A DNA stretch of 43,021 bases from Candidatus Altimarinota bacterium. GTDB lineage: Bacteria > Patescibacteriota > Gracilibacteria > UBA1369 > UM-FILTER-53-11. This document shows positions 2,346 to 9,752 of the stretch, piece by piece. Below the pieces are notes generated by a model. The model was given only the letters and a program-made list of their open reading frames with translations. It was not told where the DNA came from and ran no database searches. Made by a program: the position numbers and the translations under genes. Within the stretch, counting starts at the first letter, position 1, and every line of letters starts with the position of its first letter. The stretch is from positions 1 to 43,021 of the forward strand of contig JAGOUV010000005.1 of NCBI GenBank assembly GCA_018061065.1. Reading direction: 5' to 3'.

Positions 2346-3403
2346 AAAAATATATCGCAGTATTAGCGGGTGATGGCATCGGACCTGAGGTGACTCAGCA
2401 GGCGGTGAATGTGTTGAGAAAAATCGCGCAACAGTTTAATCATGAGTTTATTTTTAAAGATGCACTTGTTGGTGCGGCAGCGATTGATGCGACGGGGAAT
2501 CCACTCCCGGATGAAACATTAGAGTTATGTAAGAAGAGCGATGCGATTTTATTTGGCGCGATTGGAGATCCGCGCTTTGATAATCCGTCTGTGGCCGTGC
2601 GGCCGGAACAGGGCTTACTTAAGCTCCGAAAAGCTCTTGAGCTGTATGCGAATGTACGGCCTATCATGACTTTTACTTCGCTTGCAGCGCAGTCGCCGTT
2701 GAAGGAAGAAGTTGTGCGTGATGTGGATTTTGTGGTGATTCGTGAATTGACTGCGGGAATATATTTTGGACAACCGCGCGTGAAAGCTGCGGATGGCTCA
2801 CATGCGATCGACACGTGTACGTATACGCGTGAGGAGATTGAGCGCGTTGCTGAATTTGCCTTTGAGCTTGCGGCAAAACGTCGTAACAAAGTTACGCTTG
2901 TGGATAAGGCAAATGTACTTGCTACGTCGCAGTTATGGCGAGAAGTGGTTACTGATTTTGCAAAAAAATATCCAGAAATCATTTTGGATTTTTTATATGT
3001 CGATAATGCGGCGATGCAAATTATTCGTAATCCGCGACAGTTTGATGTCATGCTTACAGAGAATTTATTTGGAGATATTTTGACTGATGAGGCGTCGGTG
3101 ATCACGGGATCCTTGGGAATGTTGCCGTCGGCTTCGATCGGAACAAGGCAGGGTTTTGGCTTGTATGAGCCTATTCATGGGTCATATCCGCAAGCGGCCG
3201 GGAAAGATATTGCTAATCCGGTTGGTGCAATTTTATCTGCAGCATTATTGTTGCGCTATTCATTTGGACTTGAAAAAGAAGCATCTGCGATTGAAGATGC
3301 GGTAAAGAAAGTGATTGAGGCTGGTCATGGGACAGTTGATATTGCACCGCATCATCCTCTCTCTACCATTGAGCTGTCCCGACGTATTATTGAACAATTA
3401 TAA
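2342..3403 (+). CDS. leuB: 3-isopropylmalate dehydrogenase
   Basis: NAD-dependent oxidative decarboxylation of 3-isopropylmalate to 2-oxoisocaproate. At 353 residues it matches usual bacterial LeuB. Visible family signatures are GDGIGPEV at the N-terminus, the substrate-binding [10 protein letters not shown] segment, KANVLATS, and the metal/NAD region [10 protein letters not shown] followed by [10 protein letters not shown] and EPIHGS. The start ATG overlaps the leuA stop by four bases and the stop shares its last base with the leuC ATG (TAATG), so expression is coupled on both sides. Confidence 0.96.
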
Positions 3404-4797
3404 TGAAAACTCTTTTTGAAAAACTTTGGAATAATCATGTGGTAAAACATCTTCCTGATGGCCGTGATTTGCTCTATATAGACAGACATTTAGTACATGA
3501 AGTGACGAGCCCCCAGGCATTTGAGGGACTTAGAATTGCGGGGAGAAAAGTACGCAGAACCGATCTTACTCTTGCTACGATGGATCACAATGTGCCCACT
3601 GATTCGAGAACGAATATTCTGGATCCAATTTCGCGCGAACAAATTGAAACGCTAAAGAAAAATTGCGAAGAGTTTGGCGTGACGCTCTACGGACTGGAGA
3701 GTGAGCGTCAGGGAATTGTGCATATTATAGGGCCTGAACTTGGCTTTACGCTGCCGGGAACGACCATTGTCTGTGGTGACTCACATACGGCGACGCATGG
3801 TGCATTTGGAACACTGGCATTTGGCATTGGTACGTCGGAGGTGGAGCATGTGTTGGCTACGCAGACGCTTTCCCAGAAAAAACCAAAGACGTTTAAAGTT
3901 TTGTATACAGGGAAATTACAGCCACAGGTGACTGCCAAGGACATGATTTTAAAACTCATTGGAGTCATCGGGCCTGCGGGTGGAACGGGCTATGTTTTTG
4001 AGTACATGGGTGAGGCGGTGCGGGCGCTCTCTATGGAGGCACGCATGACGATGTGTAACATGAGTATAGAGGCGGGTGCGCGTGCGGGCATGATCGCGCC
4101 TGATGAGGTGACATACGAATATATCGCAAATGGGAATCGACCTTTTGCGCCAACGGGCGAAGCTCTTAAGAAAGCCATTTCCCAATGGAAATTACTGCCC
4201 ACGGATGAGGGGGCAGTCTTTGATCGCGAGGTAATAATTGATGCGAATGAGTTGGCACCTCAGGTTACGTGGGGCACGAGTCCGGGAATGGTGGTGGATG
4301 TGACCGGCGTGGTACCGGGGCTCGATGAGGCTCCGGGTTTTGCACGCGATGATGTGCAACGTGCGCTGACGTATATGGATCTCACGCCGGGAACAAAAAT
4401 GACGGATATAAAAATCGATATGGTGTTTATTGGAAGTTGTACCAATGCACGGATAGAAGATTTGCGTGCCGCGGCAGAACTATTTAAAGGAAAAAAAGTT
4501 GCAAAGGGCGTACGCGCAATGGTGGTTCCTGGCTCCGTTGCGGTAAAAGCACAGGCGGAAAAAGAAGGTCTGCACGAGATTTTTCAGGCGGCGGGTTGCG
4601 AATGGCGTTTTGCGGGATGTAGTATGTGTCTGGGTATGAATCCTGATATTCTACAGCCGGGACAGCGGTGCGCCTCTACCTCTAATCGTAATTTTGAGGG
4701 CCGTCAGGGCAAGGGTGGACGTACGCATTTAGTGAGTCCACAAATGGCGGCAGCGGCGGCAATCGCCGGACACTTTGTAGATATAAGGAAATTGTAA
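3403..4797 (+). CDS. leuC: 3-isopropylmalate dehydratase large subunit
   Basis: With LeuD it isomerises 2- to 3-isopropylmalate through a [4Fe-4S] cluster. At 464 residues it is a typical bacterial LeuC. The three cluster Cys are visible: GSCTNAR (about C346) and GCSMCLGMN (about C406 and C409). The aconitase-like signatures [14 protein letters not shown] and MTICNM-type (here [12 protein letters not shown]) are present. It overlaps leuB by one base and is followed two bases later by leuD. The N-terminus ([14 protein letters not shown]) is the standard start. Confidence 0.96.
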
Positions 4798-4799
4798 TT

Positions 4800-5402
4800 A
4801 TGAAATCTTTTACTACACATACGGGTATCATCGCAGTTCTCGATCGCTCCAATATCGACACTGACCAAATTATTCCCAAGCAATTTTTGAAATCGATCAA
4901 GCGCACTGGATTTGGACCGAGTCTATTTTTTGACTCACGGTATAACGCCGATGGCTCCCTTAACCCGGATTTTGATTTGAATAAGCCTCAATATAGGGGC
5001 GCGAGTATTTTAGTAACCGGTGCAAATTTTGGCTGTGGCTCAAGCCGTGAACATGCGGTGTGGGCGGTGCAACAATACGGTTTTAGCGTCGTTATAGCTC
5101 CCAGTTTTGCCGATATTTTTAAAAACAACAGCACAAAAAATGGCCTCTTACTCATTGAGCTTCCCGAAGCAACAGTTAACGAAATTATGTCTTGTATGGC
5201 TGGATTTTCTGATGCTATGGAGGCTGCGGTAGATTTGCCAAATCAGGTTATTACCTTTGCCTGCTCACCTCCCCGCATTTTTCCTTTTTTCATCGATCCC
5301 GCTACCAAAGACTTTTTAATAAAAGGCCTGGACGAGATCGGCCAGACCTTTTTGAATGAACGTGAGATTGAAGCCTATGAGCGTCGTGCGATAAATTTCT
5401 AA
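4800..5402 (+). CDS. leuD: 3-isopropylmalate dehydratase small subunit
   Basis: The swivelling subunit of isopropylmalate isomerase, partner of LeuC. At 200 residues it is full length and of the bacterial type. Motifs are NIDTDQIIPKQFLK and the substrate-loop region GANFGCGSSREHAVWA, then the APSFADIFKNN segment. An AAGGA lies about 10 nt before the ATG, one of the few Shine-Dalgarno-like signals in the window. It completes leuABCD in pathway order. Its TAA overlaps the stop of the converging aminopeptidase gene by four bases, and no hairpin terminator is visible between them. Confidence 0.95.
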   Translation: MKSFTTHTGIIAVLDRSNIDTDQIIPKQFLKSIKRTGFGPSLFFDSRYNADGSLNPDFDLNKPQYRGASILVTGANFGCGSSREHAVWAVQQYGFSVVIAPSFADIFKNNSTKNGLLLIELPEATVNEIMSCMAGFSDAMEAAVDLPNQVITFACSPPRIFPFFIDPATKDFLIKGLDEIGQTFLNEREIEAYERRAINF

Positions 5403-7270
5403 GCAACGCTTTCTTTTGCGCCGAGCGCCGCTACACTTTCCATGCGTGCACGCATCGTTGCCAGGTATCCATCTGCGGGGAACATACCCTGCACGTCTTT
5501 GCGTTTTCCAAGCGCCCCCGGTTCGAGCGCAGGTGCAATATCAAAATGCACAAAAGGAGTTTTCTCTATTCCTGCGGCAGCCCTAATATATGCTGCTCCG
5601 GCCATCGCACCACGCGCTGCTGCACCACCCAGGTTTGCATTTCCCCTGCCGATATTTCCAAGATCAGCCTGTCCCGCAGTATCGGTAATTGCCTTGGTGT
5701 CAGTTGGTTCTAAACGTTCGAATTGGATTTGATCACCCAATTGTCGTGCCACATCTTCCATGGCGCGTCCTCTACTGCGGCTGTCAGTAATGACGAGTGA
5801 ATTATGACTTGAAACGAGAATTGCATGTCCCGTGAGTGTTGCAAAACTACTCACCTCAGAGATCTCTGCACCTTCTGCGGCAAGCATTCTTAAGTTCGCT
5901 CCAATAACGTCACCAAGTGCCTGTCTGCCCTCTGCATCTGTGTTCATTTCACGCGTTGTTTTTCCGCTTGCATGGGTCATTATATCTTCCATATTACGTG
6001 CAGCACCGTCATTAGTATTCGAGACGACAGCAAACGTGAAATCAATATTTCCATCGATTGGTTGTTCAGCCAAGAGCGCCATTTGTCCCGCTACGCTCGC
6101 ACCACCCATCATGTCACCCTGCATACCTTCCGCTGCTTTTCCTTTTGCACATTTGCCGCCGTCATCAAAGACGAGTGTCTTTCCCGCAACAATCTGGACG
6201 GGTTTTCCCTTGGCCGACTCTGGGCGATATTTTGCGCGTACCATGAATGGTCCATTCTCATTTACTGAGCCCTGGTGTACCGCCTTAAGGACATTGAGTC
6301 CCTGAGCATCAAGCGATCCATTAACGGTAATGCCTTCTGTGTGGGGTCCATAAATTTCAAGTTCAAGTGGTACGCCAGATGTTTTTAAGACCTCAACCAT
6401 TTTATTAATAGTCCGTACAAAAACCTCACTCGTCATAAGATTATGAGGTGCTTCCGTTAAGAATTTTACCAGTGACTGAACACGGGAAATGCCATCCCCT
6501 GCTTCAAAAGGTTTTGCCATTTTTTCTGCACCAGCATCAGCTTCTAGTACATCACTATACAGATAAACATTTTTCAACGCTTTGCGTGTAGTGCGGGTAA
6601 TGGCATCAGGAGATGCCTCTGCCCCCTCGGCTGCCTTTTCTGCAGATTTGCCATCGGTAAATTGTTCAGATGCTTCGGATCGGTAGTGTCCCGCTTCATA
6701 CCCCACATTTCCCAGTCCCATACCTACTGCACGCATAGCATGAGGTAGTGTCTCTGATTGTGAAATTGATGAATCAACATAAATTGCCAACCCATCATTG
6801 GTACCTGCCTGCTCGTTTTTTACATTTTCGCCGACTACGTCCTTAAGCTGAGTTCCAACCGCATCTCTCCATGCCATTGGTAGATAAAATCCATTATCGT
6901 CATCGGGACTTCCCTTTGTAGGACCTCCTGCAACCACATGCACCATCTCAATAGTTCCCAGTCCCTGCACCGCAACAGTCGTTGAACCTGAGCGCAATTC
7001 CTTTGAGCCCGGTTTTTTGCCTTCTTTAAATAACGCCGCCGCTTGGTGGCTAAGTGCCGGTCCCAATGCGGGATGATTCAAAATTTCCTCAGGTTTTTCA
7101 GGGTTAACAAAAACGACCATCTGTTTAGGGCCGTTTATTCCTTGCAAGCCGTCAGCTCTCGCATCGAGTTTTTGAAACTGTGGTTTACTTGCCGCCGGTA
7201 GGCGTGAGCCAATGTCGATAACTTCACTGGGCGTAATCATCTTATAAACCAACCGATGGGGAGTGAACAT
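5399..7270 (-). CDS. Divergent M17 (leucyl) aminopeptidase-family protein
   Basis: A predicted cytosolic metallo-aminopeptidase. The C-terminal half carries the M17 signature NTDAEGR near residue 445 (two metal ligands plus the bicarbonate-site Arg). Upstream are GKTLVFDDGG (Lys and Asp ligands near 363-368) and GDMMGG (Asp near 387), and downstream SFATLTGHA and the final GAAYIRAA...HFDIAP block. All five expected metal-ligand positions appear conserved. At 623 residues it is clearly longer than the usual ~480-500. The extra length is in the poorly conserved N-terminal half and in an Ala/Glu-rich stretch near residue 200. An alternative start is Met11. It converges on leuD with overlapping stops. 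A role in recycling leucine from peptides is inference only. Confidence 0.82.
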   Translation of the reverse strand: MFTPHRLVYKMITPSEVIDIGSRLPAASKPQFQKLDARADGLQGINGPKQMVVFVNPEKPEEILNHPALGPALSHQAAALFKEGKKPGSKELRSGSTTVAVQGLGTIEMVHVVAGGPTKGSPDDDNGFYLPMAWRDAVGTQLKDVVGENVKNEQAGTNDGLAIYVDSSISQSETLPHAMRAVGMGLGNVGYEAGHYRSEASEQFTDGKSAEKAAEGAEASPDAITRTTRKALKNVYLYSDVLEADAGAEKMAKPFEAGDGISRVQSLVKFLTEAPHNLMTSEVFVRTINKMVEVLKTSGVPLELEIYGPHTEGITVNGSLDAQGLNVLKAVHQGSVNENGPFMVRAKYRPESAKGKPVQIVAGKTLVFDDGGKCAKGKAAEGMQGDMMGGASVAGQMALLAEQPIDGNIDFTFAVVSNTNDGAARNMEDIMTHASGKTTREMNTDAEGRQALGDVIGANLRMLAAEGAEISEVSSFATLTGHAILVSSHNSLVITDSRSRGRAMEDVARQLGDQIQFERLEPTDTKAITDTAGQADLGNIGRGNANLGGAAARGAMAGAAYIRAAAGIEKTPFVHFDIAPALEPGALGKRKDVQGMFPADGYLATMRARMESVAALGAKESVA

Positions 7271-7397: not shown

Positions 7398-9752
7398 ATG
7401 TTTTGGGTAGATGAGCTCGTGGCGCAGATAGAAGCTGCGTATCCGGGTAAGAAAAAATTCATTGTGCGTGACGAAAAAACAGCTTCAGGACGCGTGCATG
7501 TAGGTTCGTTGCGTGGCGTGGTGATCCATGGAGTGGTGGCTCAAGCACTGGCAGAAAAAGGCTATGACGTTGAGTATTTTTATGAGATCAACGACGCCGA
7601 TCCCATGGATGGCATGCCGGTATATTTGGATAAAAAAGTTTTTGACCAGCACATGGGAAAGCCGCTCAAGGACGTCCCTACCCCCGACGAGAAAACGGCT
7701 CCGGGTTTAGGTATTAAACCCGCTGAAAATTTTGCACGATACTTTGGTAATGAATTTGTAGATGTAATTAATTCAATTGGATTTAAGCCAACAATTTATT
7801 TAGGAAGTGATTATTACGCTGAGGGAAAATACGATCATTGGATCGATGTTGCGCTTGAGAATCCGGATGAAATTCGTCGTATATATAAGGAAGTTTCCGG
7901 CTCTGAAAAAGACGAGGAGTGGAACCCGGTGCAGGTTGTTTGCGAGAACTGCGGACGCGTGGGAACAACAACGGTGATTGGCTCAGAAGGACCTATGGGA
8001 GCCAAAATAGTGGAGTATCGCTGTGAGCCAAACAAAGTGAAATGGGCGGTGGGATGCGGGCACACGGGCAAGGTCGCGCCATATAAGGGGCGCGGAAAGT
8101 TGCCGTGGAAAGTAGAGTGGGCTGCCAAGTGGCAGATTTTTCCGGTGGATATTGAAGGTGCAGGAAAAGATCACTCAGTGGTGGGCGGTTCACGAGATGT
8201 TGCGGCACGAATTGCAAAAGAAGTTTTCAAGGGTGTTGTGCCTTTTAATATTCCCTACGAATTTTTGAATTTTGGTGGTGCAAAGATGAGTGCAAGTAAA
8301 GGCATTGGAGCCAGCTCGCGTGAAGTGGCAGACAGCATTACGCCCGAGTTGTTGCGCTTTCTTATGGTGCGCACGCGTTATCCACAGGCGATTGATTTTG
8401 ATACGGGTAGTGATGCAATTCCGCGTTTGTTTGATGCTCATGATGAGGCAGCGGCAGCTTATTTTGGGCATAGTGATAAGGAAAATGCCGAAGATCTCAA
8501 GCGTGTATATCATTTTTCACAATTGGATTCTTCTGAAATTGGCGAGGTGTTTTTCCCCCGCTTCTCGCGTGTTGCTTTTACGGTGCAGATTCCAAGTCTC
8601 GATTTCAAGACGGAGATGGAAAAGTTAAAAGGTGCCCCGCTCACTCCAGCAGATATTACCGAGGCTGAGTTGCGTAGAGATTATGCGCGTGTATGGCTGC
8701 AGCGGTACGCTCCGGACAGCGCAAAATTTACCGTGCAAAAAGAACTGCCTCCATTGGCTCGTGAATTAAGTGAAGATCAAAAACATTTCCTGAAGGCCGT
8801 TGCTGATTTGATGTTATCTCGCACGGAATGGCTTGGTGAAGAGCTCCACACCTCTATTCACGAGGTGCGTAAATCCTCTCCCCTGGAAGCCCGCGATGCA
8901 TTTAAGGCAATTTATATCGCATTACTTGGAAAAGATTCTGGTCCACAGGCAGGTTGGTTTTTGGATGCACTTGACCGTGAATTTGTGACGCAGCGTTTTT
9001 ATGAAATCGCAAAACTTCCTAAATTTGAAAAACCCGAAATCGCCGATTTGGTTTCGCCAGAAATTGTTATTAAAAAAGAAGTTCGCGTGCGTTTTCCTGG
9101 AGTGAAAGTCGGATTTGCCCTATTGCGTGGCGTGCATATCGGGAATTTAGGAGATAATTTTGAGTCAATTGCTGCGCCGTATTGGCAAGGTTTGGATTTT
9201 GAAAATTTGAAGAAAAAATCACCGCGCTTAGAATCATTCCGTGAGATGTATCGTGGGTTCGGAGTGAAGCCGTCGAATAATAAACCGAGTCCCGTAGCTT
9301 TGATTTCACGCCTTGCAAACGGGAAAAAACTGACCCCCATTAATTCCGCAGTTGATATGGGAAATATAATTTCTGTAAAACATCAGTTGGCTGTCGGACT
9401 TTTTGATTTAGATAAAATGACGCTGCCGATTGTTTTGGATTTTGCAAAAGGTGGTGAGATGTATAAAGGAATGGGCACTGATAGATTTGTTCCCCTTATG
9501 GCGGATGAGCTTTGTTATTTTGATTCGAGCACACCCACACCTATAGTTACCGTGCGCGATTTTAACTATCAGTATTCTGAGATAACAAAAATCACTCCGG
9601 ATACAAAAAATATAGTGGTGAATATTGATGGCAACGATGGGTGCACGCTAGCAGATGTAGAAAAAATGATGAGCGAACTTATTGAGCTATTACAAAAGCA
9701 CTGCGGTGGCACACCTGACAGCACACCTGTTTTTCTTGATGCGCGGCCATAA
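7398..9752 (+). CDS. lysS: Class I lysyl-tRNA synthetase fused to a C-terminal B3/4 domain
   Basis: It charges tRNA-Lys. The Rossmann catalytic domain has the HIGH-type motif HVGS at residues 34-37 and KMSASKG near 296. A Cys cluster (CENCG...C...CGH, roughly 177-220) looks like the zinc insertion, and a helical anticodon-binding region runs to about 530. This is the archaeal-type class I enzyme, normally ~500-550 residues. Here the chain continues to 784. Residues ~560-784 resemble the B3/4 domain of the PheRS beta chain and free-standing B3/4 proteins (VRFPGVKVGFALLRGV, SPVALISRLANGKKLTPINSAVD, GDEL-type strand, final helix). The frame is uninterrupted with no internal start signal, so it reads as a true fusion. 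A tRNA-Lys(UUU) gene lies elsewhere in the window. The B3/4 role (proofreading or tRNA contact) is inference. Confidence 0.88.
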   Translation: MFWVDELVAQIEAAYPGKKKFIVRDEKTASGRVHVGSLRGVVIHGVVAQALAEKGYDVEYFYEINDADPMDGMPVYLDKKVFDQHMGKPLKDVPTPDEKTAPGLGIKPAENFARYFGNEFVDVINSIGFKPTIYLGSDYYAEGKYDHWIDVALENPDEIRRIYKEVSGSEKDEEWNPVQVVCENCGRVGTTTVIGSEGPMGAKIVEYRCEPNKVKWAVGCGHTGKVAPYKGRGKLPWKVEWAAKWQIFPVDIEGAGKDHSVVGGSRDVAARIAKEVFKGVVPFNIPYEFLNFGGAKMSASKGIGASSREVADSITPELLRFLMVRTRYPQAIDFDTGSDAIPRLFDAHDEAAAAYFGHSDKENAEDLKRVYHFSQLDSSEIGEVFFPRFSRVAFTVQIPSLDFKTEMEKLKGAPLTPADITEAELRRDYARVWLQRYAPDSAKFTVQKELPPLARELSEDQKHFLKAVADLMLSRTEWLGEELHTSIHEVRKSSPLEARDAFKAIYIALLGKDSGPQAGWFLDALDREFVTQRFYEIAKLPKFEKPEIADLVSPEIVIKKEVRVRFPGVKVGFALLRGVHIGNLGDNFESIAAPYWQGLDFENLKKKSPRLESFREMYRGFGVKPSNNKPSPVALISRLANGKKLTPINSAVDMGNIISVKHQLAVGLFDLDKMTLPIVLDFAKGGEMYKGMGTDRFVPLMADELCYFDSSTPTPIVTVRDFNYQYSEITKITPDTKNIVVNIDGNDGCTLADVEKMMSELIELLQKHCGGTPDSTPVFLDARP

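Follow-up and report, generated by a model that had tools for sequence, protein, structure and literature searches.

A single open frame in a 43,021-nucleotide contig of a Candidatus Altimarinota bacterium of the phylum Patescibacteriota (GCA_018061065.1, JAGOUV010000005.1; the whole contig is referred to as the window) encodes a class I lysyl-tRNA synthetase (LysRS) with a B3/4 domain at its C-terminus. We found that this pairing recurs in many genomes of the phylum, on class II as well as class I LysRS, and that the domains on the two enzyme classes share a common ancestry. We propose, with somewhat more confidence than doubt, that the domain is a covalent post-transfer editing domain which would clear mischarged tRNA-Lys.

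The fused protein

The protein comprises 784 amino acids in one unbroken frame. Its parts and motifs are as follows.

7398..9752, +: lysS, class I LysRS plus B3/4 domain, 784 amino acids plus stop, assigned by families; mean predicted local distance difference test score (pLDDT) of the full-length model 93.6
7398..9011, +: class I LysRS part, residues 1-538, with the catalytic region and the helical region that binds the anticodon (TIGR00467, PF01921, fold of 1irx)
7497..7508, +: HIGH-type sequence motif HVGS, residues 34-37
7941..8069, +: cysteine cluster CxxC ... C ... C, residues 182-224, a possible metal site
8283..8303, +: KMSKS-type sequence motif KMSASKG, residues 296-302
9012..9053, +: short linker, residues 539-552, almost without regular structure in the model
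9054..9749, +: B3/4 domain, residues ~553-784, Pfam core 616-769 (PF03483; model pLDDT 96.2; CtdA Z 26.2)
9339..9365, +: B3/4 core motif INxxVDxxN, residues 648-656; D653 and N656 are nearly invariant across B3/4
9396..9416, +: GLFDLDK, residues 667-673; F669 is a candidate specificity position
9555..9587, +: RDFNYQYSEIT, residues 720-730; the LysRS-type DFNYxD replaces the CtdA-like RRWNWRE, and the window departs from it at Y726

The original prediction, made from the sequence alone, had described a class I LysRS with HVGS and KMSASKG motifs and a cysteine cluster, ending near residue 540 in a frame that runs on without interruption, and the family models, the motifs and the predicted fold all agree with that description. 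The NCBIfam model lysS_arch (TIGR00467) matches residues 1-534 with 345.9 bits (cut-off 147.55), and Pfam tRNA-synt_1f (PF01921) matches the LysRS part with 280 bits; the cysteines of the cluster are residues 182, 185, 209 and 220. The full-length model aligns to the class I LysRS structure 1irx with a template modelling (TM) score of 0.87 by target. Thus, residues 1-538 have both the family score and the fold in common with that enzyme, which, unlike the window protein, has no C-terminal B3/4 domain.

No class II LysRS scored over the curated family cut-off in the window's genome, which is 98.5% complete, and the class II model gave only four weak matches there, as expected from related class II synthetases. 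The cell thus probably relies on the fusion as its sole LysRS. A tRNA-Lys(TTT) gene is present in the window and, taken together with the lack of a class II enzyme, indirectly supports charging of tRNA-Lys with lysine by this protein.

The B3/4 domain and its closest relatives

The C-terminal extension, which the original prediction had taken for a B3/4 domain resembling that of the PheRS beta chain, indeed yields the expected Pfam match (B3_4, PF03483, residues 616-769, E 3.5e-17, 63.0 bits versus a gathering cut-off of 29.3). Structure prediction gives a confident B3/4 fold and widens the domain to about residues 553-784. The comparison with PheRS beta stands for the family and the fold; the nearest characterised relative, however, is the deacylase CtdA. 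In searches with Foldseek and VIA-align, CtdA is the top structural match of the domain model (Z 26.2, 225 of 231 residues, root-mean-square deviation 2.8), and PheRS beta editing domains rank after it, with a Z of 18.6 for the PheRS beta editing domain and of 16-19 over ~175 residues for the bacterial chains. The full-length model aligns to CtdA (9f7e) with a TM score of 0.83 by target, and by sequence, too, CtdA is the best solved match, albeit a weak one (E 0.0015). PheRS beta is thus ruled out as the nearest relative. The domain set that surrounds B3/4 in PheRS beta is also absent from the protein: the pheT_bact model reaches 16.4 bits, against 402.65, and over residues 616-719 only. The B3/4 of PheRS beta, which edits Tyr-tRNA-Phe, is embedded inside a class II synthetase, whereas in the window protein, B3/4, although of the same Pfam family and core fold, is C-terminal on LysRS.

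CtdA (PDB 9f7e, 9mkl; PMC10018355) has the whole-domain fold, the length and the core residues of the family in common with the domain from the window, from which it differs in several respects. It is free-standing and specific for canavanyl-tRNA-Arg, whereas the window domain is fused in one frame to LysRS; the two are only ~20% identical; and both the RRWNWR motif and the Glu common at position 669 in CtdA-like domains are altered in the window domain.

Distribution of the fusion

Our survey was confined to this phylum, where the class I LysRS-B3/4 fusion was read in 36 genomes. Among the 89 genomes of the window's order, it is complete in four, namely that of the window and G001, G003 and G024, in which it is 65%, 62% and 47% identical to the window fusion, respectively; in G004, where the contig begins inside the gene, it is probable. 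Other full-length class I fusions are found in G779, from the window's class, and in genomes of other classes, namely G115, G247, G094, G715 and 27 more from the class of G247. In the class of G247, a LysRS-type domain was detected at E <1e-70 in 40 of 280 genomes, nearly always in frames of 740-890 amino acids, and the 29 new loci read there comprise 27 class I LysRS, one class II LysRS and one locus starting at a contig end. Class II LysRS with a C-terminal B3/4 domain occur in 11 genomes (G034, G428, G089, G125, G355, G369, G685, G702, G735, G733 and G734), some of them with added HD, DUF2000 or tRNA_bind domains.

Given this recurrence in many separate genomes, an assembly or frameshift artefact, which the original prediction had named together with a missing B3/4 match as grounds for abandoning it, is ruled out. 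The pairing that had been pointed out as unusual is accordingly real but not a singular case, being widespread in the phylum and present on class II LysRS as well.

Some LysRS have more elaborate architectures. In G355, class II LysRS, HD, B3/4 and DUF2000 follow one another in one frame of 1119 amino acids (L116:91-3447:+), and the class II LysRS of G369 (L118) and G685 (L154) carry both tRNA_bind and B3/4, in differing order. In G414, an aldehyde dehydrogenase family domain lies in frame ahead of a class I LysRS (L112:446-3412:+, 989 amino acids).

Evolution of the domain on the two LysRS classes

The main tree of B3/4 comprised 79 domains, and a first tree 51 rows. In the 79-domain tree, 24 domains from class I LysRS and nine from class II LysRS group together in a single clade (support 99/86), to the exclusion of the B3/4 domains of ArgRS, TyrRS, MetRS and free-standing proteins. 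The window domain belongs to this clade and does not group with the sampled CtdA-like free-standing proteins. Class I and class II members are intermingled within the clade, and a clade of class I-fused domains alone is rejected by the approximately unbiased (AU) test (p 0.0014). The 51-row tree also recovers the joint LysRS clade (100/97), and there class I monophyly is not rejected (p 0.286).

One class II fusion stands apart. The domain of G034 clusters with CtdA-like proteins that are free-standing and come from the same order (100/100), and a single clade of all LysRS-fused domains that includes it is rejected (p 7.7e-4, 51-row tree), so that, judging by the trees, it is a separate, independent fusion of a CtdA-like protein.

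In the tree of the class I catalytic part, the fused enzymes do not form one clade, and a single ancestral class I fusion inherited vertically without loss is rejected (AU p 6e-5). Moreover, the unfused enzyme of G002 is the sister of the fused one of G003. Together, these relationships imply gain, loss or exchange of the domain on more than one occasion. No B3/4 remnant was found behind the unfused LysRS of G002. A phage or plasmid source was also considered and rejected, the only matches being weak and to free-standing relatives.

Because both LysRS classes are intermingled in one B3/4 clade, the domain appears to follow lysine rather than the enzyme scaffold. We consider it an even call whether this pattern reflects a lysine-dedicated post-transfer editing domain of Patescibacteria that has been swapped between class I and class II LysRS, remaining with the tRNA and the amino acid as one catalytic core gave way to another.

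Conserved residues and selection

The core residues of the family, D653, N656, D670, E687, D709 and G771, are all retained in the window domain. Between the B3/4 parts of the window and G001, the frequency of codon differences is 0.69 at the third position versus 0.22 at the second; with second-position differences at one third of those at third positions, this codon comparison indicates that the domain is constrained by purifying selection. Other positions vary with the partner synthetase, in particular 669 and 720-726. Position 669 is Phe in 91% of the LysRS-type domains; elsewhere, it is Glu in 66% of the ArgRS-fused and 50% of the free domains, and His in 61% of the TyrRS-fused and 3/3 of the MetRS-fused domains. 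Similarly, the CtdA-like RRWNWRE reads DFNYRD in LysRS-type domains. These positions are candidates for recognition of the amino acid side chain.

Proposed function of the domain

The folds of the two LysRS enzymes are unrelated, and all that the enzymes have in common is lysine and tRNA-Lys. Given that the domain is found on both and is distinct from the domains of other synthetases, recognition of tRNA-Lys or of its misacylated forms is its most likely role. Under the model we favour, the class I core would charge tRNA-Lys, and the C-terminal B3/4, with its deacylase fold of the CtdA/PheRS-beta type, would accept the 3' end once the tRNA is charged, within one and the same protein, and hydrolyse those molecules that bear a wrong amine-bearing amino acid, for example, a lysine analogue or a biosynthetic neighbour of lysine. 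Hydrolysis, the tRNA-Lys substrate, action in cis and the kind of amino acid removed are all putative elements of this model, suggested by the predicted fold and the phylogenetic pattern.

Several observations weigh against editing. The CtdA motif (CRRWNWR) is changed in the LysRS-type clade, and the window domain has, in addition, Tyr at position 726, where 97% of the LysRS-type domains have Asp. The placement of LysRS and B3/4 relative to each other is uncertain in the full-length model (predicted TM score 0.74). Many relatives have a class I LysRS without B3/4, and in G002, which lies within a group of fused relatives, the domain has apparently been lost, which would make it dispensable. 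Furthermore, the range of lysine analogues accepted by class I LysRS is reportedly narrower than that of class II (PMC1475646), so that it is not evident why editing would be needed.

The altered CtdA motif would also fit a domain that merely holds tRNA-Lys without hydrolysis, in the manner of the OB-fold appendages on other synthetases. Class I LysRS activates its amino acid only in the presence of tRNA (PMC7373986), and tacked-on RNA-binding domains are common, the B2 OB domain of PheRS having been reported on a few LysRS of Microgenomates (PMC5370408). However, the presence of both tRNA_bind and B3/4 on some class II LysRS speaks against a simple replacement of one binding module by another, and the conserved core combined with partner-dependent positions suits recognition of a side chain better than generic binding; we regard a pure binding role as unlikely.

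Somewhat less likely still is that LysRS only carries a deacylase which acts in trans on another tRNA, such as canavanyl-tRNA-Arg. CtdA, the closest solved relative, deacylates canavanyl-tRNA-Arg biochemically without ArgRS (PMC10018355), and the class II fusion of G034, given its grouping with CtdA-like free proteins, may be a case of this kind. Nevertheless, the clade of LysRS-fused domains is separate from the ArgRS-fused and the CtdA-like free domains, separate B3/4-ArgRS fusions exist in the same order, and Phe at position 669 replaces the Glu common in the ArgRS-type and CtdA-like domains. A decaying or functionless remnant riding on LysRS, finally, could account for the apparent loss in G002, the absence from many relatives and Y726 in the window, but is very improbable given purifying selection, a fold predicted with high confidence, a conserved core and intact frames in dozens of genomes. 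Editing of tRNA-Lys by the attached domain thus remains our preferred interpretation.

Relation to known editing systems

The components of this protein are of known kinds, and it is the combination of LysRS with B3/4, and the movement of the domain between LysRS classes, that appear to be new. Among synthetases, LysRS alone exists in two unrelated forms. Its known editing is that of class II, in which homocysteine, homoserine and ornithine are cyclised before transfer and for which no separate domain is needed (PMC7373986). We found no prior account of B3/4 on LysRS in the open-licence literature, in which the slash term 'B3/4' is unsearchable, so that a description elsewhere is possible; the study of CtdA mentions neither fusions nor LysRS (PMC10018355). 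The closest precedent is the report of the Microgenomates LysRS, which also describes the swapping of domains in TyrRS (Mukai et al. 2017, PMC5370408). These are patescibacterial LysRS with a PheRS-beta-like piece at the C-terminus, as in the window protein, but B2 is an RNA-binding OB fold and not the B3/4 editing domain.

If the editing model is correct, LysRS would gain a covalent proofreading site of a kind that had not been reported for this enzyme. The occurrence of B3/4 on both LysRS forms, in a clade of its own and moving between them, would amount to a natural experiment in which quality control appears able to stay with the tRNA instead of the enzyme. A testable question then arises, namely against which amino acid these reduced bacteria need to protect tRNA-Lys.

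B3/4 on other synthetases and genomic context

Within this one phylum, B3/4 is a module placed on LysRS, ArgRS, TyrRS and MetRS. In the window's order and its relatives, ArgRS often bears B3/4 at its N-terminus (L051, L054, L056, L057, L060, L119, L120, L128, L129 and L130); such enzymes are obvious candidates for editing canavanine in cis. TyrRS also carries the domain at the N-terminus (L059, L063, L070, L117, L189, L191, L206 and L207), and two of these enzymes, L206 and L207, have tRNA_edit (PF04073) as well, that is, two editing-type domains on one TyrRS. On MetRS, B3/4 is C-terminal (L190, L196 and L197) and forms its own clade. A protein of 389 amino acids from G735 (L205:1453-2619:+) combines B3/4 and tRNA_bind without a synthetase and groups with the TyrRS-fused domains. 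In genome G000, B3/4 matches at the starts of contigs C3 and C12 (L001 and L002; profile positions 3-145 and 105-174) look like a single pheT split by the assembly.

No T-box or riboswitch was found in the window at the Rfam threshold. The region adjoining lysS (3403-7270) encodes large and small subunits of the aconitase family (leuC/leuD-like), followed by an M17 aminopeptidase on the opposite strand.
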